Position numbers and translations under genes: made by a program. From positions 99,035-163,034 of the forward strand of contig CAKKQC010000012.1 of the NCBI GenBank assembly GCA_919901855.1: DNA of 64,000 nt. The letters are read 5' to 3'. The stretch's first letter is position 1, and each line of letters begins with the position of its first letter. This document shows positions 21,930 to 34,855 of this stretch, in pieces. Below the pieces are notes generated by a model. It saw nothing but the letters and a program-made list of their open reading frames with translations, made no database searches and had not been told where the DNA came from. Source of the stretch: a bacterium (lineage in GTDB: Bacteria; Oederibacteriota; CAKKQC01).

Positions 21930-23915
21930 ATGGCTAGCCGTCCGGCGCCTCTGTCTCCGGTCACCGCGCGAGCGGTCACGATCGGCTTCCTTGCGAGCCT
22001 CGCCGTCTGCCTCGTGATGGCCTACAACGACTACTACCTCCAGAACACGCTCCTGATCGGCAACCACTTCCCCGTCATCTCCATCATCCTGGTCATGGGG
22101 CTGGTGCTGACCGTGAACGTCGCGGCGCGCCGGTGGGGGGGCACCGGGCTCGCGGTGGGGGAGCTCCTCCTGATCTGGGGTATGGTCGGGGTCGCGGGCG
22201 GCATCTGCTCCGCCGGGATCATGCGCTACTTCCCGTCGTGGATGGTGAGTCCCGCCTACTACGCGAGTTCCGGGAACGACTACCAGAGCTTCATCCTCCG
22301 GCACCTGCCGGACTGGATGGTCGTGAGCCGGGACCCGGACGCGCCGGCGGTCAAGTGGTTCATGGAGGGGCTGCCGCGGGGGGCCTCGATCCCCTGGAAG
22401 GTGTGGGTCATGCCGATGCTCGCCTGGTTCGGGTTCGCGCTCCTGGTCTTCGCGTCGAACCTGGCGCTGGTCTCGCTCTTCTACCAGCAGTGGTCCGACC
22501 GCGAGCGCCTGATCTTCCCGCTCGTCCAGGTGCCCTTCGAGGTCTCGCGGGACCCCGAGCCGGGCCGCCTCGTGAACGAGTTCCTCCGGAACCGGTTCAC
22601 GTGGATCGGGGTCCTCGTCCCCGTCGTCATCCTCGGCTACAACGGCCTCCGGACGTACATGCCCGGGATGCCCGCGTTCCCGCTGAGCTGGTACGTCTGG
22701 GGGGTCTTTCCGGACCGTCCCTGGAGCGAGTTCCACCTCAACGACGTGAACATCTATTTCACCGTCATCGGGCTCACGTTCATGCTCACGACCGAGATCG
22801 CGTTCTCGATGTGGGCGTTCGTCCTGCTCTACAAGTGCGTGCCCGTTTACGTGGCCTGGCTGGGCGTCGCCGGCGGCTTCTGGGCGAACCCCGCGTCGTC
22901 GATCACGGTCTTCGAGGCCTCGGGGGCCATCCTCGCGATCGCCGGGTTCCTGTTCTGGATCGCGCGCCGGTCGCTCGCGGCGTGGTGGAACCGCGCGGTC
23001 GCGGGCCGGTCCGACGCCGTGCTCGATCCCTGGTCCCCGCGGCTCGCGCTGGCCCTGATCGCGGCCGGCCTGCTCGGCCAGGTGCTCTGGTTCCTGCTGG
23101 CCGGGGCCCAGTGGTGGGTCGCGGTCCTGAGCGTCGTGCTCTTCCTCGCGATCCTGCTCGTGCTGACCCGGATCATCGCCGAGGCCGGGATCATGTTCGT
23201 CCAGAGCAACGTCATCGCCTACGACTGGGTGACGGGGTTGTTCCCCCCGGCCTGGATCACGGGGCGGACCCTGGGGACGCTCATGATGCAGAAGGCCGTC
23301 ATCATGCTCGACCTGCGCGAGATCTTCATGCCGTACGTCATGAACGGGCTCCGGGCCTGCGGGCAGGCGAGGATGAAGCTGGGTCCCGTGCTGTGGGTGT
23401 TCGCGGCGACGGCCGTCGTCGGGCTCGGGATCTCGGGGTACGGGCGGATCGTGACGAGCCACAAGTACGGCGGCGTGAACATGGACCAGTACGCGAACGT
23501 CGGCCAGCCGATGGGGATGCTGGACCAGGTGGCCTCGTTCCAGAAGAACCCGCCCACGTACGAGTACGTGCGATGGGGGGAGCGGCGGGTGTTCCCGGTC
23601 AACGCCCTGCACTTCGTGATCGGGGGCGTGTTCGCGGCCGCGCTCCTGTGGCTGCGGGCGATGTTCCTGTGGTGGCCGCTCCACCCGTTCGGGTTCGTCC
23701 TGTGCGGGAGCTGGGCGATGACCGTCTTCTGGTTCTCCGTGTTCCTGGGCTGGGCGTTCAAGGCCGTGATCATGACCTTCGGCGGCGCCCAGGCGTACCG
23801 CCGGGCCCTGCCGCTCTTCCTCGGGCTCGCGCTGGGCGAGTCGGTCATGGCCGGGTTCTGGATGCTGGTTTCGCTCGTGACGGGGCAGCCCGGGATCGCG
23901 ATCCTGCCGCACTGA
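21930..23915 (+). CDS. DUF6785/DUF6784 OPT-like membrane transporter (first copy)
   Basis: 661 residues with about twelve to fourteen membrane helices. Features include AYNDYYLQNTLLIGNHFP after helix 1, the conserved QQWSDRERLIFPLVQVP loop near residue 190, NDVNIYFTVIGL, and FVQSNVIAYDWVTGLFPPAW near 430. This is the pattern of the DUF6785/DUF6784 proteins, which I regard as distant relatives of the OPT oligopeptide transporters; the substrate is unknown. It has a partner of the same type at 29159-31141, and the permease and ATPase genes of the same cluster follow it. Confidence 0.75.
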   Translation: MASRPAPLSPVTARAVTIGFLASLAVCLVMAYNDYYLQNTLLIGNHFPVISIILVMGLVLTVNVAARRWGGTGLAVGELLLIWGMVGVAGGICSAGIMRYFPSWMVSPAYYASSGNDYQSFILRHLPDWMVVSRDPDAPAVKWFMEGLPRGASIPWKVWVMPMLAWFGFALLVFASNLALVSLFYQQWSDRERLIFPLVQVPFEVSRDPEPGRLVNEFLRNRFTWIGVLVPVVILGYNGLRTYMPGMPAFPLSWYVWGVFPDRPWSEFHLNDVNIYFTVIGLTFMLTTEIAFSMWAFVLLYKCVPVYVAWLGVAGGFWANPASSITVFEASGAILAIAGFLFWIARRSLAAWWNRAVAGRSDAVLDPWSPRLALALIAAGLLGQVLWFLLAGAQWWVAVLSVVLFLAILLVLTRIIAEAGIMFVQSNVIAYDWVTGLFPPAWITGRTLGTLMMQKAVIMLDLREIFMPYVMNGLRACGQARMKLGPVLWVFAATAVVGLGISGYGRIVTSHKYGGVNMDQYANVGQPMGMLDQVASFQKNPPTYEYVRWGERRVFPVNALHFVIGGVFAAALLWLRAMFLWWPLHPFGFVLCGSWAMTVFWFSVFLGWAFKAVIMTFGGAQAYRRALPLFLGLALGESVMAGFWMLVSLVTGQPGIAILPH

Positions 23916-24030
23916 TGGGCATTTCCGGAGCGTTCATCCCGGGTCGCGGCGGATTTGGTCCTGACGTCGGGCCATCGTACCCTATTGGGGTGACTCGACT
24001 GGCCAAACACGGGCCGTGCGGGAGGATCGC

Positions 24031-27000
24031 GTGACGCTGGCGCGCGCTAGGGCGGGCGCCCGGGTTTCGCCGGACGGCGAACCCCGGCATCCCGCCGGTG
24101 AAGGCGGCGGTGGACACGCGCTCTGGTGGTGGATCGGCACCCTCCTCGTCACGGCCGTCACGCTCGTCTACTTCCAGCGGTGGGGCCGGCCCTACCTCAA
24201 CGTCGAGAACGAGGGCGAGATTCAGATAAGCCCCGCCGACTACGCGCGCGTCGCCGCCGAGGTGTCGCCGGCGCGGCTCGAGGCCACCGTCAAGACGCTC
24301 GCCGGATTCGGGTCGCGCCTCTCGGGCTCCGCGGGCGCGGACGCGGCCGCCGCGTACCTCAGGGAGGAGATGGTCTCGCTCCTGGGGAAGTCCAACGTCC
24401 GCGAAGAGGACTTCGACATCGACAACCCGTTCGACCTCGGCTGCGAGATGGAGGCGGGGGGGGAGACGTTCCGCGCGCACCCGATGTGGGCACCCCACCT
24501 GCGCACGTACCGGCTCCCGTCCGGCGGCCGCGACCTCGGCTCCGTCGTGCGGCTGAAGCTCTCCGAGGTCCTGCGCGGCGACGGGCGGATGGACGGGGCC
24601 GCGGTGGCCCTGCCGTGGATCGTGGACGCGGATCTGCGCTTGATCGTCCTCGCCGCGTGGCGCGGCGCCAAGTTCGACCGCAAGCTCCGCGACCCGCTGA
24701 CGAAGAGCGAGCTCGCGCTCCTGAAGCGTCTGGCCCCCGGGACCGCCAGAGTCGCCGAGGACGACCGGATGCTCGACATCCTCGCCGAAAAGCACCAGGC
24801 GATCCTGGGGGAGCTCCTGTTCGACCGGCTCGCGGCGGGCGGCGCCCGGAGCCTGCTCGTCCTCGAGCCCGCCGGTACAACAATGCGTGTTGTACCTCAC
24901 AGCTTCGCGGACCGGATCCTCAAGTACCCCTCCAGCCTCCCGCGGTACCTGGTCGGGTCGCGCCACACGGACGCGATCCGGAACGGCGCGGCGGTCCGGG
25001 TGCGCCAGGCCCGCAGCGCGCTCACTCTGGCCTCCGGCGAGGCCCTGCGCGTCTACCCCGTGTGGCCGAACCTCGTGCGGACGGCCTCGACGCCCCGGAG
25101 CGGCATCGAGGGCCGGCTCGTGTGGGCGGGCCGGGCGTCGCTGCCCGAGGTGGCGGGCAAGTCGCTCCAGGGCGCGATCGTGATGGTGGACTTCAACTGC
25201 GGGTTCCAGTGGGTCGGGCTGGTGGACCTGGGTGCGGCCGCCGTGCTCTTCCTCGAGCCGCCCGAGATCATGCGGGGCGAGTCGGAGAACAAGTACCTGT
25301 CCCTGCCCGCGAACATCCCCCGGTTCTGGGTGCCGAGGGCCGACGCCGAGCGCCTGCGCGGGCTCGAGGGGACGACGGCGCGGCTGGACGCCCAGGTCGT
25401 GTGGGAGCGGCGGGTCGGGCGCAACATCGTCGGGGTCTTGAGGGGCACGGGGAAGGCCACGGACTCCGACCCGGTGGTGATCACCGCCCAGTACGACTCG
25501 GTCTCCGTGGTGCCGGATCTGGCGCCCGGCGGGGACCAGGCCTGCGGCGCGGCCGCCGCGCTCGAGCTGATCCGGGTCCTCAAGCGCCACCCCCTCAAGA
25601 AGGACACGCTCTTCGTCCTGACGTCCGCCCACTGCCAGAACCTCAAGGGCTGGGGCGAGTTCCTCGACCGGCACTGGATCCGGCTCGAGAAGAAGAAGAA
25701 GGACCCCGACCGGATCAAGCCGGCGTTCGCCGTCGACCTCGACCTCACGACGCGGACCCGCCGCCTGGCCGTATTCTTCAAGGGGCACCGGCTGGACCAG
25801 AACGAGGGGCCCACCCGGCGCGTCTACTCCACGTTCGGCCGCAACCACGCGCAGGCCGGCGCGGCCGTGGCGGAGGCGCTCGGCTACGGCAAGACCTTCA
25901 TGGCGGACGCCGTGAACGCGGTCTCCGGGCGCACGTGGGACTCGTACATCCCGGGCCCGTTCGCGCTGGCGCAGGAGCTCACGATGAACGCGGGGCTCTA
26001 CGGCATCGCGTATGCGACGCCCGACGACGAGCGGGTCTGGGTCGACACGCCGCACGACAGCCCCGTGCGCATGGACTTCGAGTCGCTGACCCGCCAGGTC
26101 CGCGTCCTCGCGTGCGTCCTCCCGAACCAGCTCAACGTCGGCGCCGCGTTCTCGTCCAGCAACGTCGTGAACTACTGGACGACCCTCAAGGGCCGCGTCG
26201 TCGAGTGGGTCCACCGGGAGTCGTTCCTGCCGGACAAGAGCCTCAACGGCGCGATCGTGTGGAGCCACCACTGGTGGCCGGTCCGGAGCCTCAAGGGCGT
26301 GCGCGGGCACATGTTCACGATGGCGCTCGGGCCCGACCAGGGCGGGGCCAACTTCGAGCTCCGGGGCCTGGGGCATTCGAGCTGGCTGGCGACGCAGTGG
26401 AAGGCGCACACGATCTGCGATCCCTACGAGCTCGACCCCATGGACGGCGCGGTCCGGTACGCGCCGGACCGCGGCCCCGAGGGCTCCCAGCAGTACGTCG
26501 CCGAGACGGACATGGACGAGAAGGTCAAGAACCTGATGCTGGTCGCCTTCCCGTGCCGCTCGCTGCTCATGTTCGACCTCGTGGACCCCCTGCGCTACAC
26601 GGCCCTCCAGCGGATGCAGGTGTACGACGCCCGGACCGATTCCGAGCCGTCGCTCTTCGGGGCCGCCCAGCCGGAGCAGAACTACCTCGTGACCTACGTC
26701 GAGCCGCTGGCCACGGCCTTCGCCCCCGAGGGCACGTCGCTCAAGTTCACATTCTGGGCGGGCGGGTTCCTGGGCAAGCGGTGCGCGCTCGTGAACTCGT
26801 CCGAGAAGCTCCCCGAGGGGGCCGGGTTCGACCTCGAGCGCGTCGACCGCGTGAACTTCACGGCCCGCCAGGTCGCGATCGACATGTGGAGGCTGAACGA
26901 CCACCGGCTGGCGAATCTCCGGACCTACGGCATCGTGAACCACTTCCTCGAGGACTTGCACCGCCAGGCGAAGGAGCGGCTCGACCGGATGCAGGCGGCG

Positions 27001-29175
27001 GTCCGGGTCCGCGACTGGCGGGGGGCGGTGGCCGAGGCCCGGGCGGCCTGGGGCCTGGACGCCCGCGTGTACCCTGCCGTCGAGCAGTCCGCGGCCGACG
27101 TCGTCCACAGCGCCGTCCTGTACCTGGCCCTGCTCGTGCCCTTCGCGTTCCTGGCCGAGCGCCTGTTCTTCGCGTTCAATAACGTCACCAAGCAGGTGGC
27201 CGGCGCGCTCGGGGTCTTCCTCGGCATGTTCGGCATCCTCTGGTTCGTCCACCCGGCCTTCCGGATCGCGCTCACGCCCATCATGATCCTGCTCGCCTTC
27301 ATCATCCTGGCGCTGTCCGTGGTGGTGTCCGGGATCATCGCGTCCCGGTTCTTCGACTTCCTGCGCCGCGAGCGCGAGTCGCTCCAGGGCGTCCACGAGG
27401 CCGACGTCTCCAAGATCAGCGTGGCCATCGCCGCCTTCCTGCTCGGGGTGTCGAACATGCGCAAGCGGCCGTTGCGGACCGCTCTCACCTGCCTGACCCT
27501 CGTCGTCCTCACGTTCGCCGTCCTCTCGCTCACGAGCGTCCAGCAGGCCGTGAAACAGCGCAAGTACTCGATCGGGAAGACCGCGCCCTACGAGGGCCTC
27601 CTGTTCCGGCAGACGACGTGGGCCGCGCTGGCCGAGCCTGCGTTGAAGTACCTCGAGACCGAGCTTGCGAGCGTGGCGGTCCCGGTCCCGCGGGCCTGGT
27701 ACGTCAGTTACGCCGCCGACCGCCAGAACGCGGTCGAGCTCTCAAACGGGGACCGCGCCCGCGCGACCGCGGTGGCCGCGCTCGGGCTGACCTCCGCGGA
27801 GGCCGGGGTGTCCGGCATCACCTCGACCGTGGTCGCGGGGCGCTGGATCGCGAAGGGGGAGACGCGCGTGTGCCTCCTGCCGCGCCAGCTCGCGGCGACG
27901 CTCTACATCGGGGCGGGGGACCTGGGGACCGCGCAGGTCACGATCTTCGGGGTGCCGTTCACGGTCATCGGCCTCTTCGATCCTCGCAGGTTCGGCAAGC
28001 TCCGGGACCTCGACGACGAAGAGCTTTCCCCCGTGAACTTCGAGGCGACCGAGAAGAAGCGGGCGTCCCAGAACGTGACGTCGATGCAGCGGGAGGGCCA
28101 GCTTCCCCAGAAGTACGACCACCACGACGCGGGCCAGATCGTGATCCTGCCGTTCGACGACCTCATGCGGCTCAACGGCCGGCTGGCCTCGATCGCCGTG
28201 CCCCTGCCCCGCCCGCTGGACCTCAAGCACGCGATCGACCGCCTCCTGTCGCGGCTGGGCATCCTGGTCTACGTCGGGCTGAACCACAAGACCTACGCCT
28301 ACAGCGCCATCGGCGACACGCCGACGGAGGGCCTCGGCAACCTCGTCGCGCCCGTGGCCATCGCCGTCCTCATCGTGCTCTCGACCATGCTCGGCGCGGT
28401 GCAGGAGCGCCGGCGCGAGATCGCCGTGTTCTCATCCGTCGGGCTTTCGCCGACGCACGTGGCCGTGCTCTTCCTGGCCGAGTCGTTCGTCTTCGCGATC
28501 ATCGGGGTCGTGATCGGGTACCTGCTGGGGCAGATGTTTTCCCACCTCGTCGTCTCGGGGCTGGTTCTCCAGGGCCTCAACGTAAACTACTCCTCGGGGT
28601 CCGCGATCCTGTCCGTCGTGATCGTCATGGGCGTCGTCCTCCTGTCGACGCTCTACCCGGCGTACATGGCCTCGCGGCTGGCGCGGCCGTCCTCGATCGG
28701 CGGGTTCGTGCTCCCGCCGCTCGTCGGCGACAAGGTCTCCCTGCAACTGCCGTTCTCGTTCAACGCCCGGGACGCGGAGGCCGTGTGCGCGTTCCTGGCC
28801 GAGTTCTTCGACGCGCACGCCGAGGCGTCGGCGGGCGAGTTCTCCTCCGGGCTGATCCGCCTCGAGCGAATGGGTCCCGACTGCATCCTCGGGGTCCGCG
28901 TGTGGCTCGCGCCATACGACTTCGGCGTGAGCCAGGACATCCGGTTCACGACCCGCGAGGGGATCGGGGACGAGTCCTCGGCGACGATGGAGATCACGCG
29001 GTTGTCGGGCGACCAGGCCTCGTGGCGGCGCGTCAACAACCGGTTCCTGAAGACGATCCGCAAGCAGTTCCTGATCTGGCGCGCCCTGGGCGAGGTCGCG
29101 CGCATCGGTTATCAGAAGGAGGCCCGGCGGATGACCGCCCGGGCGAAGGAGGTCGCGCATGCCCCCGAAGCCTGA
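24031..29175 (+). CDS. Giant FtsX-like permease with degenerate M28 peptidase-like domain
   Basis: About 1714 residues. A membrane helix (about 30-50) anchors a large extracytoplasmic region with a PA-like insert and an M28-like domain near residues 470-540. Expected zinc-peptidase motifs are altered there: AQYDS where family members have AHYDS, GGDQACG in place of GADDNASG, and TSAHCQNLKGW in place of an EE-containing segment, so hydrolysis is doubtful. The C-terminal third has two blocks of membrane helices (from about 1030 and 1145, and from about 1437) ending in an FtsX domain (AVQERRREIAVFSSVGL, LSTLYPAYMASRLAR). GTG 24031 has GGAGG 5 bases upstream. Likely partner of the downstream ATPase. 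It overlaps the next gene by 17 bases. Confidence 0.75.
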   Translation: MTLARARAGARVSPDGEPRHPAGEGGGGHALWWWIGTLLVTAVTLVYFQRWGRPYLNVENEGEIQISPADYARVAAEVSPARLEATVKTLAGFGSRLSGSAGADAAAAYLREEMVSLLGKSNVREEDFDIDNPFDLGCEMEAGGETFRAHPMWAPHLRTYRLPSGGRDLGSVVRLKLSEVLRGDGRMDGAAVALPWIVDADLRLIVLAAWRGAKFDRKLRDPLTKSELALLKRLAPGTARVAEDDRMLDILAEKHQAILGELLFDRLAAGGARSLLVLEPAGTTMRVVPHSFADRILKYPSSLPRYLVGSRHTDAIRNGAAVRVRQARSALTLASGEALRVYPVWPNLVRTASTPRSGIEGRLVWAGRASLPEVAGKSLQGAIVMVDFNCGFQWVGLVDLGAAAVLFLEPPEIMRGESENKYLSLPANIPRFWVPRADAERLRGLEGTTARLDAQVVWERRVGRNIVGVLRGTGKATDSDPVVITAQYDSVSVVPDLAPGGDQACGAAAALELIRVLKRHPLKKDTLFVLTSAHCQNLKGWGEFLDRHWIRLEKKKKDPDRIKPAFAVDLDLTTRTRRLAVFFKGHRLDQNEGPTRRVYSTFGRNHAQAGAAVAEALGYGKTFMADAVNAVSGRTWDSYIPGPFALAQELTMNAGLYGIAYATPDDERVWVDTPHDSPVRMDFESLTRQVRVLACVLPNQLNVGAAFSSSNVVNYWTTLKGRVVEWVHRESFLPDKSLNGAIVWSHHWWPVRSLKGVRGHMFTMALGPDQGGANFELRGLGHSSWLATQWKAHTICDPYELDPMDGAVRYAPDRGPEGSQQYVAETDMDEKVKNLMLVAFPCRSLLMFDLVDPLRYTALQRMQVYDARTDSEPSLFGAAQPEQNYLVTYVEPLATAFAPEGTSLKFTFWAGGFLGKRCALVNSSEKLPEGAGFDLERVDRVNFTARQVAIDMWRLNDHRLANLRTYGIVNHFLEDLHRQAKERLDRMQAAVRVRDWRGAVAEARAAWGLDARVYPAVEQSAADVVHSAVLYLALLVPFAFLAERLFFAFNNVTKQVAGALGVFLGMFGILWFVHPAFRIALTPIMILLAFIILALSVVVSGIIASRFFDFLRRERESLQGVHEADVSKISVAIAAFLLGVSNMRKRPLRTALTCLTLVVLTFAVLSLTSVQQAVKQRKYSIGKTAPYEGLLFRQTTWAALAEPALKYLETELASVAVPVPRAWYVSYAADRQNAVELSNGDRARATAVAALGLTSAEAGVSGITSTVVAGRWIAKGETRVCLLPRQLAATLYIGAGDLGTAQVTIFGVPFTVIGLFDPRRFGKLRDLDDEELSPVNFEATEKKRASQNVTSMQREGQLPQKYDHHDAGQIVILPFDDLMRLNGRLASIAVPLPRPLDLKHAIDRLLSRLGILVYVGLNHKTYAYSAIGDTPTEGLGNLVAPVAIAVLIVLSTMLGAVQERRREIAVFSSVGLSPTHVAVLFLAESFVFAIIGVVIGYLLGQMFSHLVVSGLVLQGLNVNYSSGSAILSVVIVMGVVLLSTLYPAYMASRLARPSSIGGFVLPPLVGDKVSLQLPFSFNARDAEAVCAFLAEFFDAHAEASAGEFSSGLIRLERMGPDCILGVRVWLAPYDFGVSQDIRFTTREGIGDESSATMEITRLSGDQASWRRVNNRFLKTIRKQFLIWRALGEVARIGYQKEARRMTARAKEVAHAPEA
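24061..24086 (-). repeat. Tandem-hairpin repeat, copy D (inside coding sequence, inverted)
   Basis: A 7-bp TTCGCCG stem (24066-24072 and 24075-24081), one mismatch, then four more pairs to 24061 and 24086. On the minus strand the centre is TC as in the other copies. A short GGGC stem lies on the expected side. It encodes an RVSPDGEPRHP-like N-terminal stretch of the giant permease. Confidence 0.6.
24874..24896. repeat. GGTACAACA hairpin inside the giant permease gene
   Basis: Perfect 9-bp stem with an ATGCG loop, translated as PAGTTMRVVPH. It is AT-rich against its surroundings and resembles the GGTACC hairpin at 8651-8670. Confidence 0.5.
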
Positions 29176-31141
29176 ACCGGAGGGCGAGTACGTCGACGCA
29201 TTCGACTGGAAGACCGTAGTCGGGGCGTTCTTCGTCGGACTCGTCATGATGCCCGCGGCCATCTACGTCTCCCTGTTCGCGGGCCAGGGCCTCGACCAGG
29301 CCGCGATCTGGGTCACGATCATCCTCTTCGCCGAGCTGGCGCGCCGGTCGGTCAGCGCGCTCAAGAAGCAGGAGATGTACCTGCTCTACTACGTGGCCGC
29401 CGGGCTGTCGGGCGGCGGCGTCTTCGCCGGGCTCGTCTGGAACCAGTTCCTGCGCCAGTCCCGCGAGGCCGCGGCGTTCGGGGTGGCGCAGAACATGCCC
29501 ACCTGGGCGGCGCCGCTGGCGGATTCGCCCGCCCTGCTCGAGCGCAAGCTGTGGCACCCCGACTGGCTGCCCGCGATCGGGCTCGTGCTCGTGGGCCAGG
29601 TCCTCTCGCGGTTCAACTGGTTCGGGATCGGGTACGCGCTCTTCCGGCTCACCTCCGACGTCGAGCGGCTGCCGTTCCCGATGGCCACCGTCGCGGCCGA
29701 GGGCGCCGTCGCCCTCGCGGAGTCCCCGGAGAAGAAGGAGAGCTGGCGCTGGCGGGTCTTCTCGATCGGGAGCATGCTGGGCCTGGGTTTCGGAATGGTC
29801 TACGTCGGGATCCCGGCGATCACGTACCTGATCTTCGCCTCGCCGCTCGCGCTGCTCCCGATCCCGTGGAAGGACTTCACCCCGGCGCTCCAGAACATAC
29901 TGCCGGCGACGCCCCTCGCGATCTCGTTCGACCTGGGGTCCGTCCTCTGGGGGATGGTCGTGCCCTTCTGGGCCGTGGTCGGCACGTTCGTCATGAGCGT
30001 GGTCTCGACGCTGGTCGCGAACCCGATCCTCTACAATCTCGGGTTCTTCCCGACGTGGCGCAAGGGCATGAGCGTCCTGGACACCCAGTTCGCGACATCC
30101 TTCGACTTCTGGCTCCCCGTCGGCTTCGGGGTGGCGCTCGCGGTCGCCGGCGTCGGCGTCTGGCAGCTCGTCCGGATGCTCAAGCGCAAGGAGGCCGCCG
30201 TCATGGCGGCCGACATGGAACTGCTCCTGGGCAAGGAGGGGATCCTGCGGTTCGGCAAGCCCCAGACCGGCCCGCGCGTGATCCCCAAGGGCCGCGGCGA
30301 CTTCCCGGTCTGGATCGCGATCGCGATGTTCCTCGTCTCGACGGCCGGGTACGTCTGGGTCTGCCACATCCTGGTGCCGCGGTTCCCGCTCTGGATCCTG
30401 ATCTTCTTCGGGTTCATCTGGACCCCGATCACGTCGTATATCTCGGCGCGCATGATCGGGCTCACGGGCAACGGGGTCTGGTTCCCGTACGTCAAGGAAG
30501 GGTCGTTCGTGCTCTCCGGCTACAAGGGCGTGGACATCTGGTTCGCGCCGATCCCGCTCAACGACTTCGGGGGCGTGGCCGCGTTCTTCAAGCAGCTCGA
30601 GCTGACGAAGACGAAGTTCACGTCGATCATCAAGGCCGAGATTCTCATGTTCCCGATCAGCATCGGGTTCAGCTTCCTGTTCTGGGCCTTCATCTGGCAC
30701 CTGACCACGATCCCGTCGTACGCGTTCCCGTTCGCGAACAAGGTCTGGCCGTTCAACGCCCGCACCAGCAGCCTGTGGATGACCGCGACGAGCGAGGGCC
30801 GGGCGTGGCTCCTCGAGGCCCTGCTGAAGCCGAACTGGATCGGTGTCGGGTTCGGGTTCGGGTGGGTCCTCTACTGGATCGTGGACATCATGAAGTGGCC
30901 GATCTTCCTGTTCTACGGCGCCGTCGGCGGGATCAACAACCAGATCGGCGGCTGGCCCATGCTGTCCATGATCGGGGCGCTGCTGGGCAAGTTCTGGCTG
31001 GCGCCGCGGTACGGCGAGGAGCGCTGGTACCGGTGGGTGCCCGTGCTGTGCGCCGGGTTCGCGTGCGGCATGGGGCTCGTCTCGATGCTCGCGGTGGGAA
31101 TCACGATCGTCCAAGGGACGGTTGTGACTAAGCCTTTCTAG
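29159..31141 (+). CDS. DUF6785/DUF6784 OPT-like membrane transporter (second copy)
   Basis: 660 residues and about fourteen membrane helices. It shares the general OPT-like topology with the protein at 21930 but is divergent. Recognisable pieces are FGIGYALFRLTSDVERLPFPMATVAAEG near residue 160, SFDLGSVLWGMVVPFWAVVG, and an ISARMIGLTGNGVWFPYVKE segment near 430. The ATG lies inside the end of the upstream permease gene, and the next gene's GTG shares the last base of its TAG stop, so the three are tightly coupled. Substrate unknown; oligopeptide-like compounds would be the family-based guess. Confidence 0.75.
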   Translation: MPPKPEPEGEYVDAFDWKTVVGAFFVGLVMMPAAIYVSLFAGQGLDQAAIWVTIILFAELARRSVSALKKQEMYLLYYVAAGLSGGGVFAGLVWNQFLRQSREAAAFGVAQNMPTWAAPLADSPALLERKLWHPDWLPAIGLVLVGQVLSRFNWFGIGYALFRLTSDVERLPFPMATVAAEGAVALAESPEKKESWRWRVFSIGSMLGLGFGMVYVGIPAITYLIFASPLALLPIPWKDFTPALQNILPATPLAISFDLGSVLWGMVVPFWAVVGTFVMSVVSTLVANPILYNLGFFPTWRKGMSVLDTQFATSFDFWLPVGFGVALAVAGVGVWQLVRMLKRKEAAVMAADMELLLGKEGILRFGKPQTGPRVIPKGRGDFPVWIAIAMFLVSTAGYVWVCHILVPRFPLWILIFFGFIWTPITSYISARMIGLTGNGVWFPYVKEGSFVLSGYKGVDIWFAPIPLNDFGGVAAFFKQLELTKTKFTSIIKAEILMFPISIGFSFLFWAFIWHLTTIPSYAFPFANKVWPFNARTSSLWMTATSEGRAWLLEALLKPNWIGVGFGFGWVLYWIVDIMKWPIFLFYGAVGGINNQIGGWPMLSMIGALLGKFWLAPRYGEERWYRWVPVLCAGFACGMGLVSMLAVGITIVQGTVVTKPF

Positions 31142-32199
31142 TGGCTGCCAGGGCTCCCTCCCGGAACCGGCGGATTGCGCCGGCGCTGCGGCACGTGCCG
31201 GCGCCGTACAACGGCCCCGAGCGCCGCGCCAACGGCCGGTACTCGCTCACGCTCCACGGGCGCGGGACCTTCCTCTCCGTGCCCACGCGCTGGCTCCACG
31301 AGAAGGAGGCCTTCGAGGTCGTGGCCGAGGACGTGAGCCTCGGCGGCATGCAGGTCCACTTCAACGAGCCCGTGCGGGCCGGCGACGCCGTGCGGCTCAA
31401 GTTCACGGTGCCCGGGCGCGGCGCGATCGAGCTCGACACGGTCGTGCGCTGGGTGCACCGCGAGCCGGGCAGCCGGCTCGCCGACACCTCCGCCGGGCTC
31501 GCGTTCAACGACGACGCGCCGCACAAGGACATCGAGGCCCTCCTGCACGCGTCGGACTACAGCCGGGGCGGGGCCTCTTCCGGGACCGGCGGCGTGACCG
31601 CGATGACGCGCCAGGTCAACCTGCCCCTGCGCCGGGCGATCGAGATCAGCATCAGGAGCCTGCGCATCCGCACCACGCGCACGCTCGCGACCTCGGCCGT
31701 GGTCATGTTCGCGATCTGGTTCCTGACGCTCATGCTCTGCTCGGGGCCCGTGAGCGCGGCCCTCGAGATCGGCGAGATCATCACGAAGGAGAGCCGGGCC
31801 CAGGACCTCTGGGTCGTGATCGTGTCCATGCTCGTGGCCGTGGTCGGGATCACGAACACGCTCCACATGTCGGTGGCCGAGCGCTACCGCGAGATCGGGA
31901 CGATGAAGTGCCTGGGCGCGCTCGACCGGTTCGTGGTCGAGCTGTTCCTGCTCGAGTCGCTCGCGCTCGGCGCCGTCGGCTCCGTCGCGGGCGCGTTCTG
32001 CGGCATGGTCCACGCGATCTATCCCTGGCTCACGCGGGCCAAGGAGCTCGACCACGTCGCCCTGCCGGTCAAGGCCCTGCTCGAGAACTTCGGGTTGGGC
32101 GTCGCCGCGGGCCTCGCGCTCACGATTCTGGGCTCCCTGTACCCGGCCTTCCGGGCGGCGCGCATGGCGCCGGCGGAAGCCATGCGGACCGAAGTCTGA
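31141..32199 (+). CDS. PilZ domain-FtsX permease fusion
   Basis: 352 residues. Residues about 24-135 are a PilZ domain with both c-di-GMP-binding motifs intact: RRxxxR at 28-33 (ERRANGRY) and DxSxGG at 64-69 (EDVSLGGMQV). After a glycine/serine linker, residues about 160-352 form a minimal FtsX permease with four helices, at about 184-205, 222-242, 265-292 and 313-336, and the signature ERYREIGTMKCLGA. The usual large periplasmic domain between helices 1 and 2 is almost absent. The combination suggests an ABC permease gated by c-di-GMP. A single-base overlap couples it to the OPT-like gene; the ATPase follows. Confidence 0.85.
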   Translation: MAARAPSRNRRIAPALRHVPAPYNGPERRANGRYSLTLHGRGTFLSVPTRWLHEKEAFEVVAEDVSLGGMQVHFNEPVRAGDAVRLKFTVPGRGAIELDTVVRWVHREPGSRLADTSAGLAFNDDAPHKDIEALLHASDYSRGGASSGTGGVTAMTRQVNLPLRRAIEISIRSLRIRTTRTLATSAVVMFAIWFLTLMLCSGPVSAALEIGEIITKESRAQDLWVVIVSMLVAVVGITNTLHMSVAERYREIGTMKCLGALDRFVVELFLLESLALGAVGSVAGAFCGMVHAIYPWLTRAKELDHVALPVKALLENFGLGVAAGLALTILGSLYPAFRAARMAPAEAMRTEV

Positions 32200-32226: not shown

Positions 32227-32997
<771 letters not shown>

Positions 32998-33057: not shown

Positions 33058-33342
33058 TCAGTATGCGTCCTTGCGCGGTCGGATCGTGAGGAGCGAGACG
33101 ACGTGCGCGGCGTCGTCAATCGCGTAGAAGAGTCTCCAACTTCCGAGCCGGTACCTCCACGTGTCCGGTACGATACCTTTCAGCTTCTTGATCCCCGGCC
33201 CATAATGCGGCTGTGCTGAGAGACGGGGGTAGATGCGGTCACGGAGCGTCTCCTCGAGGCGCTCACGCAAGCCGGGAGGGGTGATCCGTCCAAAGACGTC
33301 CTCGAATCGGGACGTCTCGAAGATCCGGTAGCCTTCTGGCAT
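33058..33342 (-). CDS. RelE/ParE-type toxin
   Basis: 94 residues. The core [26 protein letters not shown] followed by [13 protein letters not shown] is the RelE/ParE fold's central strand region and basic end. Such toxins cut ribosome-bound mRNA (RelE) or block gyrase (ParE); the class cannot be separated here. The antitoxin is encoded directly upstream on the same strand, 6 bases away. Confidence 0.85.
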
Positions 33343-33348
33343 GGTTGG

Positions 33349-33594
33349 TCAGGCGACGAGCCGGCCATGGCGCTTCTTGGCGGCGCGATGACCCGCCCGG
33401 ATGTCCGCCATGAGTTTGCGGTCCGACAGGATCTCGCGCATCTCGGCGGGGGAGGCGTAGACCACCTCGTCCTTGAGGCGGCGCTTGGCCGCGGTCTCGA
33501 TCAGGTTCGCGATCGATCGGTTGTCGGCCTGCGCCCGCGACCGGAACAGCTCGTAGTCGGCGTCGCTCAACCTCAGTGTGATCGTTTTGGGCAT
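33349..33594 (-). CDS. Antitoxin of the RelE/ParE pair (RHH-like)
   Basis: 81 residues from ATG 33594, chosen because GGAGG lies about 7 bases upstream and because MPKTITLRLSDADYELFRSRA is a ribbon-helix-helix type N terminus. The frame is open further upstream but without recognisable sequence. The C-terminal half (VVYASPAEMREILSDRKLMADI) is the toxin-neutralising part. It should autoregulate this operon. Confidence 0.75.
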   Translation of the reverse strand: MPKTITLRLSDADYELFRSRAQADNRSIANLIETAAKRRLKDEVVYASPAEMREILSDRKLMADIRAGHRAAKKRHGRLVA

Positions 33595-33710
33595 CCCGTC
33601 CCCTCCTGCTTCACTTTGCTTCCTTTTCATTCTACGGCTCGCCGTTTCCCGCCGCAACCCCGCGGTCAGGACGCTTGACGGGCCTCGCCGCCTTGCCAAT
33701 AATGGCGGAC

Positions 33711-34106: not shown

Positions 34107-34388
34107 ATGACACGCATTCTCGTGAACGTGAAGGAGGATGAGCTGGCCGCGGCGGATGCCGCCGCCAAGCGTCTCGGCGTGTCCCGGTCCGAGGTGGTCC
34201 GCCGGGCCCTGGCGCGGTTTGTGTCCGGCAAGGAAGCCCCCGTCGAGTCGGTCGAGGAGCGGCTTCGGAGGGTGAACCGGGTGCTGGAGGAGATGAAGGA
34301 GTCCGGGAGGCAGATGAAGAAGATCGACCCGACGTGGGACCCGGTCGCGCTCATCCGGGCGCACCGGGACGGGAAGATCCGGCTCTGA
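34107..34388 (+). CDS. CopG/RHH-type antitoxin
   Basis: 93 residues. The N terminus RILVNVKEDELAAADAAAKRLGVSRSEVVRRALARFV is a ribbon-helix-helix DNA-binding domain. The helical C terminus ends in TWDPVALIRAHRDGKIRL, likely the region that inserts into the PIN toxin. It precedes the VapC-like gene. Confidence 0.8.
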   Translation: MTRILVNVKEDELAAADAAAKRLGVSRSEVVRRALARFVSGKEAPVESVEERLRRVNRVLEEMKESGRQMKKIDPTWDPVALIRAHRDGKIRL

Positions 34389-34447
34389 AACGCCGCGTTT
34401 GCCGGTTCGCGGCGGCGGAGTCCTCCGCCCCCTGGGGCTCGCGTTTC

Positions 34448-34855
34448 GTGCTCGACGCCTCGGTCGCGGTGAAGATCTATCTGGAGGAAGTGGGCAGCGA
34501 CCTCGCCCGTCAGCTTCCTCGCCGCATCGTCACCGGGGAGACCGTCCTCCTGGCGCCGGAGCTGGTGCGCGTCGAGCTCGCTGGTGCCCTGCTCCGCGTC
34601 CGGGGCCCGGATTGGCGAAGCGTGCAGGCGGACATGGCCCGGTTCGAGGTGCTCGGGATCACGCTCCATCCGCTGACGGCGGAGTTGGCGTCGTCCGCCG
34701 TCCGCATTGCCGGCGAGCACAATCTCAGGGTCGCCGATGCCGTGTATGCGGCGCTGGCCGAGCGGTCCGGGTGCGCCGTGGTCTCGGCGGACGCCGACTT
34801 CGTCCGCCGGCTGGCCGGCACCGGACTCGCAGTCTCCCTCTCGTCTCTGCGATAA
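34448..34855 (+). CDS. VapC-like PIN domain toxin
   Basis: 135 residues. Acidic residues of the PIN active site are in LDASVAVKIYLEE (first Asp), PELVRVELAGALL (Glu), VADAVYAALAE (Asp) and VVSADADFVRRL (Asp). Predicted RNase toxin of the CopG-type antitoxin upstream. The start is uncertain: GTG 34448 is the only in-frame start close to the domain, 59 bases after the antitoxin stop, and it leaves a very short first strand. The frame is open upstream to GTG 34334, which would overlap the antitoxin. Confidence 0.8.
   Translation: MLDASVAVKIYLEEVGSDLARQLPRRIVTGETVLLAPELVRVELAGALLRVRGPDWRSVQADMARFEVLGITLHPLTAELASSAVRIAGEHNLRVADAVYAALAERSGCAVVSADADFVRRLAGTGLAVSLSSLR

Follow-up and report, generated by a model that had tools for sequence, protein, structure and literature searches.

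A PilZ domain fused to an FtsX permease

The window, by which we mean the whole 64,000-nucleotide stretch of bacterial DNA that was analysed, carries an operon that encodes two FtsX permeases, a separate ABC ATPase and two DUF6785-type membrane proteins (called OPT1 and OPT2). One of the permeases is minimal in form and is fused in frame to a PilZ domain. The genes and features of the locus are as follows.

21930–23915, + strand: OPT1, a DUF6785/DUF6784 protein of 661 amino acids with about 12 transmembrane (TM) helices (PF20581, 380 bits; PF20580, 110 bits)
24016–29175, + strand: giant permease of up to 1719 amino acids, whose true start may be further in (PF04389, M28-like; PF12704, MacB_PCD; PF02687, FtsX)
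29159–31141, + strand: OPT2, a multi-TM protein of 660 amino acids; the gene overlaps those of the giant permease and the PilZ–FtsX fusion
31141–32199, + strand: PilZ–FtsX fusion gene, 352 amino acids, GTG start, one frame without an internal stop
31222–31542, + strand: PilZ domain of the fusion, amino acids 28–134 (PF07238, 42 bits; cut-off 22.5)
31222–31239, + strand: RRxxxR motif, R28–R33, with R29 and R33 invariant across 32 PilZ sequences
31330–31347, + strand: DxSxGG motif, D64–G69, with S66 and G69 invariant across the same 32 sequences
31609–32196, + strand: minimal FtsX permease, amino acids 157–352 (PF02687, 66.7 bits), modelled with a Type VII ABC fold
32227–32997, + strand: LolD/MacB/YbbA-like ABC ATPase of 256 amino acids, GTG start with an upstream ribosome-binding site

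Just downstream lie two toxin–antitoxin-like pairs, one consisting of a ParE-like toxin and its partner (33058–33699, − strand) and the other of a ribbon–helix–helix protein and a PIN domain (34107–34855, + strand).

The PilZ–FtsX fusion is a real single gene. Its GTG start codon overlaps the stop codon of the OPT2 gene by one base, and the GC content of third codon positions is alike (0.97–0.98) across the PilZ, linker and FtsX portions. The Pfam FtsX match covers amino acids 225–344 at 66.7 bits, relative to a cut-off of 25.5. In the PilZ portion, the motif letters read R28-R29-A-N-G-R33 and D64-V-S66-L-G-G69, and thus both the RxxxR and the (D/N)xSxxG motifs are present, with R29, R33, D64, S66 and G69 in place. 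The original prediction, which had both c-di-GMP motifs intact at residues 28–33 and 64–69, was exact in these positions, and an alignment of the fused PilZ with 31 other PilZ domains reveals that the key residues are invariant. On sequence and on the modelled fold described below, the fused PilZ looks able to bind c-di-GMP.

The fusion is conserved in a second genus

The same PilZ–FtsX fusion is carried by another genus of the same family (locus L118 in genome G001, on a contig that also bears the label L038), which is the only other genome found of this family. The two fusion proteins share about 55–56% identity over matched residues 18–352 of the window protein, and their PilZ domains are 44% identical, with the invariant motif residues intact in both. 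In both genomes, moreover, the fusion gene begins where its upstream neighbour ends, at the latter's stop codon.

These observations bear on whether two separate genes were joined by a sequencing or assembly error, which is scarcely credible. Other genomes do have separate PilZ genes beside a related permease, but these sit after the ATPase gene and not ahead of the permease gene, a genome of another genus, assembled independently, has the fusion as well, and the coding signal runs unbroken across the domains. The frameshift artefact that the original prediction had raised against itself was rejected because the stop-free frame is conserved in two genera.

It is also very unlikely that the fused frame gives two products, namely the full fusion together with a free permease that begins at M155 of the window protein. 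The ATG at position 155 coincides with the beginning of stand-alone relatives, but no clear ribosome-binding site precedes it. The L118 fusion has no in-frame start codon after residue 112 until residue 157, a position beyond the conserved RQVNLP with which stand-alone relatives begin, and a free permease of full length could therefore not be produced there.

Relatives of the permease across phyla

Relatives were collected by a scan of contigs from 85,000 species genomes, which used short peptide patterns, and by whole-genome searches. Minimal FtsX permeases occur in many phyla, including Latescibacterota, Hydrogenedentota, Armatimonadota, Planctomycetota, Verrucomicrobiota, archaea and others. 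The stand-alone relatives begin at a position that corresponds approximately to residue 155, without a PilZ domain. The fullest common gene order is giant permease, OPT2, a protein of about 300 amino acids, a PqqD-like protein (PF05402), minimal FtsX and ATPase. Phyla were counted by GTDB, in which the genomes of L052, L061, L063 and L065 belong to one nine-genome phylum; GenBank titles are not fully reliable in this regard, as L052 is entered as Nitrospirota and the other three as Omnitrophota.

PilZ is absent from nearly all of these relatives, which indicates that the core machine works without it. No further PilZ–FtsX fusion was found in 384 diverse genomes, 84 genomes of one other phylum or 45 genomes of the window's own phylum, and the contig scan yielded none beyond the known pair, although others could escape its short peptide patterns. 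The architecture on which the original prediction rests therefore recurs in a second genus and, among the genomes examined, is seen in one bacterial family only, with two members. Judging by sequence, control by c-di-GMP in cis would be a lineage-specific elaboration of a permease that otherwise lacks PilZ.

Several other features were noted among the relatives. The conserved protein of about 300 amino acids (L113:8417–9397, L063:3838–4719 and others) has a GW.GI...P..W pattern near its start and often a CH end; it usually adjoins the PqqD-like gene, and it matches no Pfam family above cut-off. A paralogue in the window's own genome (L111, G000:C40:77863–78504) and its relative L112 have a PqqD-like gene ahead of minimal FtsX, two GGDEF genes nearby and no adjoining ATPase gene, and a similar pair exists in G001. 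Archaeal loci with minimal FtsX and an ATPase, mostly from Bathyarchaeota (L077–L080, L082, L084, L086, L091, L094, L097, L099 and L103), adjoin a convergent gene for an FtsX protein of about 950 amino acids that is weakly similar to the giant permease.

Predicted structure of the fusion

The permease part is predicted to form four TM helices (residues 178–208, 216–246, 262–299 and 310–341), mostly with pLDDT values of about 90 or more, joined by short loops, of which that between TM1 and TM2, on the extracytoplasmic side, is very short. This model, along with the Pfam score, bears out the earlier description of a four-helix FtsX permease that lacks the usual large periplasmic domain. The model matches MacB (Z of 18.7 over 186 residues, rmsd 2.6), as well as HrtB (17.7), LolCDE (17.5–17.7), FtsX (about 15.9) and YbbP (15.5); YtrF is matched also.

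Because the PilZ part had low confidence in the full-length model, where alignment depth was too small, it was modelled separately. The resulting model (pLDDT of 76) has a beta-barrel fold and resembles the c-di-GMP-bound PilZ structures of BcsA, VCA0042 and Alg44, with Z values of about 10–12.6 (12.6 for BcsA and 11.7 for VCA0042). The linker between the two parts, residues 140–155, has pLDDT values under 50 in the full-length model. In MacB, a cytoplasmic N-terminal ATPase domain precedes TM1 (PMC5985334), and thus the N terminus of the fusion and its PilZ domain should likewise be cytoplasmic, where c-di-GMP is located. By this analogy, PilZ should take the position that the ATPase domain holds in MacB.

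The operon suggests a heteromeric complex

The ATPase gene that follows the fusion encodes intact motifs, comprising the Walker motifs and the signature LSGGQQQR. Upstream, OPT2 yields no match in Pfam or NCBIfam and none in a sequence search of the PDB, and it is kept in the operon across many phyla. The giant permease includes a MacB_PCD domain (PF12704, 33.8 bits), and the minimal FtsX subunit has no such extracytoplasmic MacB-like domain. That a single operon encodes two FtsX permeases, of which just one has an extracytoplasmic domain, suggests a heterodimer such as that of LolC and LolE. By analogy, minimal FtsX is probably half of a heteromeric Type VII ABC complex, with the giant permease as its likely partner.

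The giant permease also carries an M28-like part. When this part is aligned to the aminopeptidase YwaD, TAHYDS is replaced by TAQYDS (H to Q) and GAEE by SAHC (EE to HC), and comparable losses of metal-binding or catalytic residues are found across the operon homologues. An active M28 peptidase was rejected because the canonical metal ligands and the catalytic glutamate are replaced; from its sequence, the domain looks like a catalytically dead pseudo-peptidase.

The giant permease and the conserved operon are context that was absent from the original prediction, which had treated the fusion as an ABC exporter served by the adjacent ATPase. A stand-alone exporter is judged unlikely given this context, in which a pseudo-M28/MacB_PCD/FtsX partner is encoded two genes upstream. 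Type VII systems often transmit force instead of carrying cargo, as for FtsEX and MacB, and the group of MacB, LolCDE, FtsEX and YbbAP includes mechanotransmission machines, which carry no substrate through the inner membrane. Thus, the function of an exporter should not be assumed for this complex.

Genes for c-di-GMP signalling recur at the locus

Separate PilZ genes are located directly after the ATPase gene in three genomes: L113, which belongs to the window's own phylum and another family, and L052/L212 and L063/L214 of the nine-genome phylum. These genes, found in two GTDB phyla, are confirmed by Pfam for L113, L063 and L052; in the second PilZ motif of L113, the first position (D/N) is S. 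PilZ genes occur at 3 of 16 loci compared with 0.25 expected (P = 0.0016), a count that includes the two starting fusions and is weak alone.

Diguanylate cyclase genes adjoin the cluster in L113, L114, L059, L069, L196, L197, L199/L073 and L212–L216, and are also found beside L111 and L112. The GGEEF active site is intact in all ten of the neighbouring cyclases whose sites were inspected. A canonical GGDEF gene lies within 3 kb of 7 of 21 clusters, where 0.30 would be expected (P = 6 × 10−9), and within 3 kb of 5 of 17 clusters after genus and family duplicates are dropped, where 0.26 would be expected (P = 3 × 10−6). This statistic covers 18 genomes in which GGDEF genes were counted, which are uncultured and incomplete. 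No GGDEF gene adjoins the operon in the window, and the contig's sole GGDEF gene lies at a distance of about 108 kb; the genome as a whole has 9 GGDEF and 7 PilZ domains.

The fused PilZ shares 15–19% identity with the separate PilZ proteins of the operon, and is not visibly closer to them than to other PilZ domains, which suggests that this locus may have become linked to c-di-GMP on more than one occasion. In a tree whose deep branches are poorly supported, the fusions are not grouped with the PilZ-adjacent loci. The recurrence of these genes supports control of the complex by c-di-GMP.

The same evidence weighs on the idea that the PilZ domain is vestigial and does not bind ligand, in which case the fusion would be a chance, neutral event of one lineage and the complex would behave like its PilZ-less relatives. 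Such an accident would fit the lack of PilZ in most relatives and the restriction of the fusion to one family. We consider it improbable, in that both genera retain every invariant motif residue despite divergence to 44% identity, and other lineages repeatedly have c-di-GMP genes at this locus.

The neighbouring cyclases of L052, L063, L065, L073/L199 and L113 have GHxxGN where the canonical sequence is GHxxGD. In Hypr cyclases, one residue in this region sets base specificity (PMC6456294). The nucleotide product of the GHxxGN cyclases is uncertain, and the equivalence of this residue to the Hypr specificity position is putative.

A possible mechanism for control by c-di-GMP

We lean towards the reading that the fusion contributes one half of a Type VII ABC complex, of the MacB/LolCDE/FtsEX type, with a built-in c-di-GMP receptor, and the complex is probably a signal-controlled envelope machine. 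More tentatively, and at somewhat less than even likelihood, we propose that this Type VII machine is gated in cis by the permease-fused PilZ, and that it belongs to a widespread, uncharacterized operon which, in uncultured bacteria, has been wired to c-di-GMP at least twice.

From the fusion, its motifs, the predicted fold and topology, the operon and the recurrent c-di-GMP genes, we infer how pairing, ligand binding, gating and envelope function might be connected. Minimal FtsX would pair with the giant FtsX (24016–29175), which would provide the pseudo-M28 and MacB-like domains outside the cytoplasm, and the pair would be powered by two copies of the LolD-like ATPase. PilZ would sit at the cytoplasmic N terminus, with a short linker running to the elbow helix ahead of TM1, near the place where the ATPase docks. 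Binding of c-di-GMP would then alter how the elbow and TM1 engage the ATPase, and might thereby switch ATP-driven movement of the partner's extracytoplasmic domains either on or off. Candidates for the work done outside are the movement or presentation of lipid-like or peptide cargo, or the control of an envelope enzyme.

PilZ domains frequently work via protein contacts, and the domain might instead be a localization or docking module, so that c-di-GMP or a partner protein would bring about recruitment or assembly of the complex without gating the ATP cycle. Consistent with such a role, the low pLDDT of the linker does not predict tight coupling, and the separate PilZ genes of other lineages would act in trans. 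These separate genes, however, fit docking and gating equally, and an N-terminal fusion beside the elbow helix in two genera is how cis coupling would be expected to look. We therefore regard a docking role as unlikely, though less so than a vestigial domain.

Synthases, motors and transcription factors are known targets of c-di-GMP; if the gating proposal is true, its direct effect on a Type VII ABC machine would tie this second messenger to ATP-driven envelope work. The fusion also offers a handle on a large cross-phylum operon that has no known function, since its sequence suggests a signal, likely partners and an assay.

Comparison with known systems

The fusion is conserved, mechanistically plausible and undescribed in the open-access literature searched. 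Nothing relevant was found there on PilZ with FtsX, DUF6785, MlaF or LolCDE, which agrees with the earlier statement that no ABC exporter is known to be gated directly by c-di-GMP in cis.

Membership in LolCDE, FtsEX and MacB was rejected because curated NCBIfam cut-offs are missed. The adjacent ATPase, predicted to be of LolD/MacB type, is indeed LolD-like (225.5 bits) but falls below the LolD equivalog cut-off of 307.75, and the score for LolC/E is 58.3 against 362.45. For FtsEX, the values are 40.8 against 255 (FtsX_Gneg) and 204.4 against 264.85 (FtsE). The MacB equivalog is missed (34.9 against 966), with ATPase and permease in separate chains here, and the ATPase also misses YbbA (206 bits against 336). 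By sequence and model, the complex would work like a Type VII system while scoring below the curated cut-off of every named one.

What it appears to share with the Type VII group of MacB, LolCDE and FtsEX is the four-TM FtsX fold, a cytoplasmic N terminus, a separate LolD-like ATPase and a MacB-like extracytoplasmic domain on the proposed partner. Unlike these systems, one half is nearly without an extracytoplasmic domain and has PilZ at the position of the MacB ATPase, the other half bears a pseudo-M28 domain, and there are accessory DUF6785-type membrane proteins. YbbAP–TesA likewise combines a Type VII ABC system with an enzyme-like extracytoplasmic module, and resembles the present complex in its ATPase and in the YbbP fold (Z of 15.5); YbbAP has been proposed to present hydrophobic compounds to an esterase (PMC12646458). 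Here, in contrast, the enzyme-like module is fused, is of M28 type and looks catalytically dead, and PilZ is present.

A second kind of PilZ fusion to an ABC system was observed a few kilobases from the studied cluster in L216 (14576–15709, − strand) and L196 (11722–12879, − strand), where an N-terminal PilZ (PF07238, 41.7 and 43.9 bits) precedes an MlaF-type ATPase, and the operon also encodes MlaE, MlaD and two LptF/LptG-type permeases. As in the window, PilZ is in cis and its motifs are kept (ERRRYSR in both), but the transporter whose ATPase bears it is of the MCE/Mla lipid type, a different ABC class.

PilZ is also fused to a membrane machine in BcsA and Alg44, which are synthesis or secretion proteins whose activity needs c-di-GMP (PMC4594306) and which rank among the structures that the PilZ model fits best; unlike the complex proposed here, they are not ABC transporters. 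The nearest precedent in principle is the control of the ABC importers OpuA/BusA and OpuC by c-di-AMP, through CBS domains fused to the ATPase (PMC10243994). In those importers, as proposed for the PilZ–FtsX complex, the effector of the ABC transporter is a cyclic dinucleotide, which works via a domain fused to a transporter subunit, although the nucleotide, the receptor domain, the subunit that carries it and the transporter class (an importer, not Type VII) all differ.
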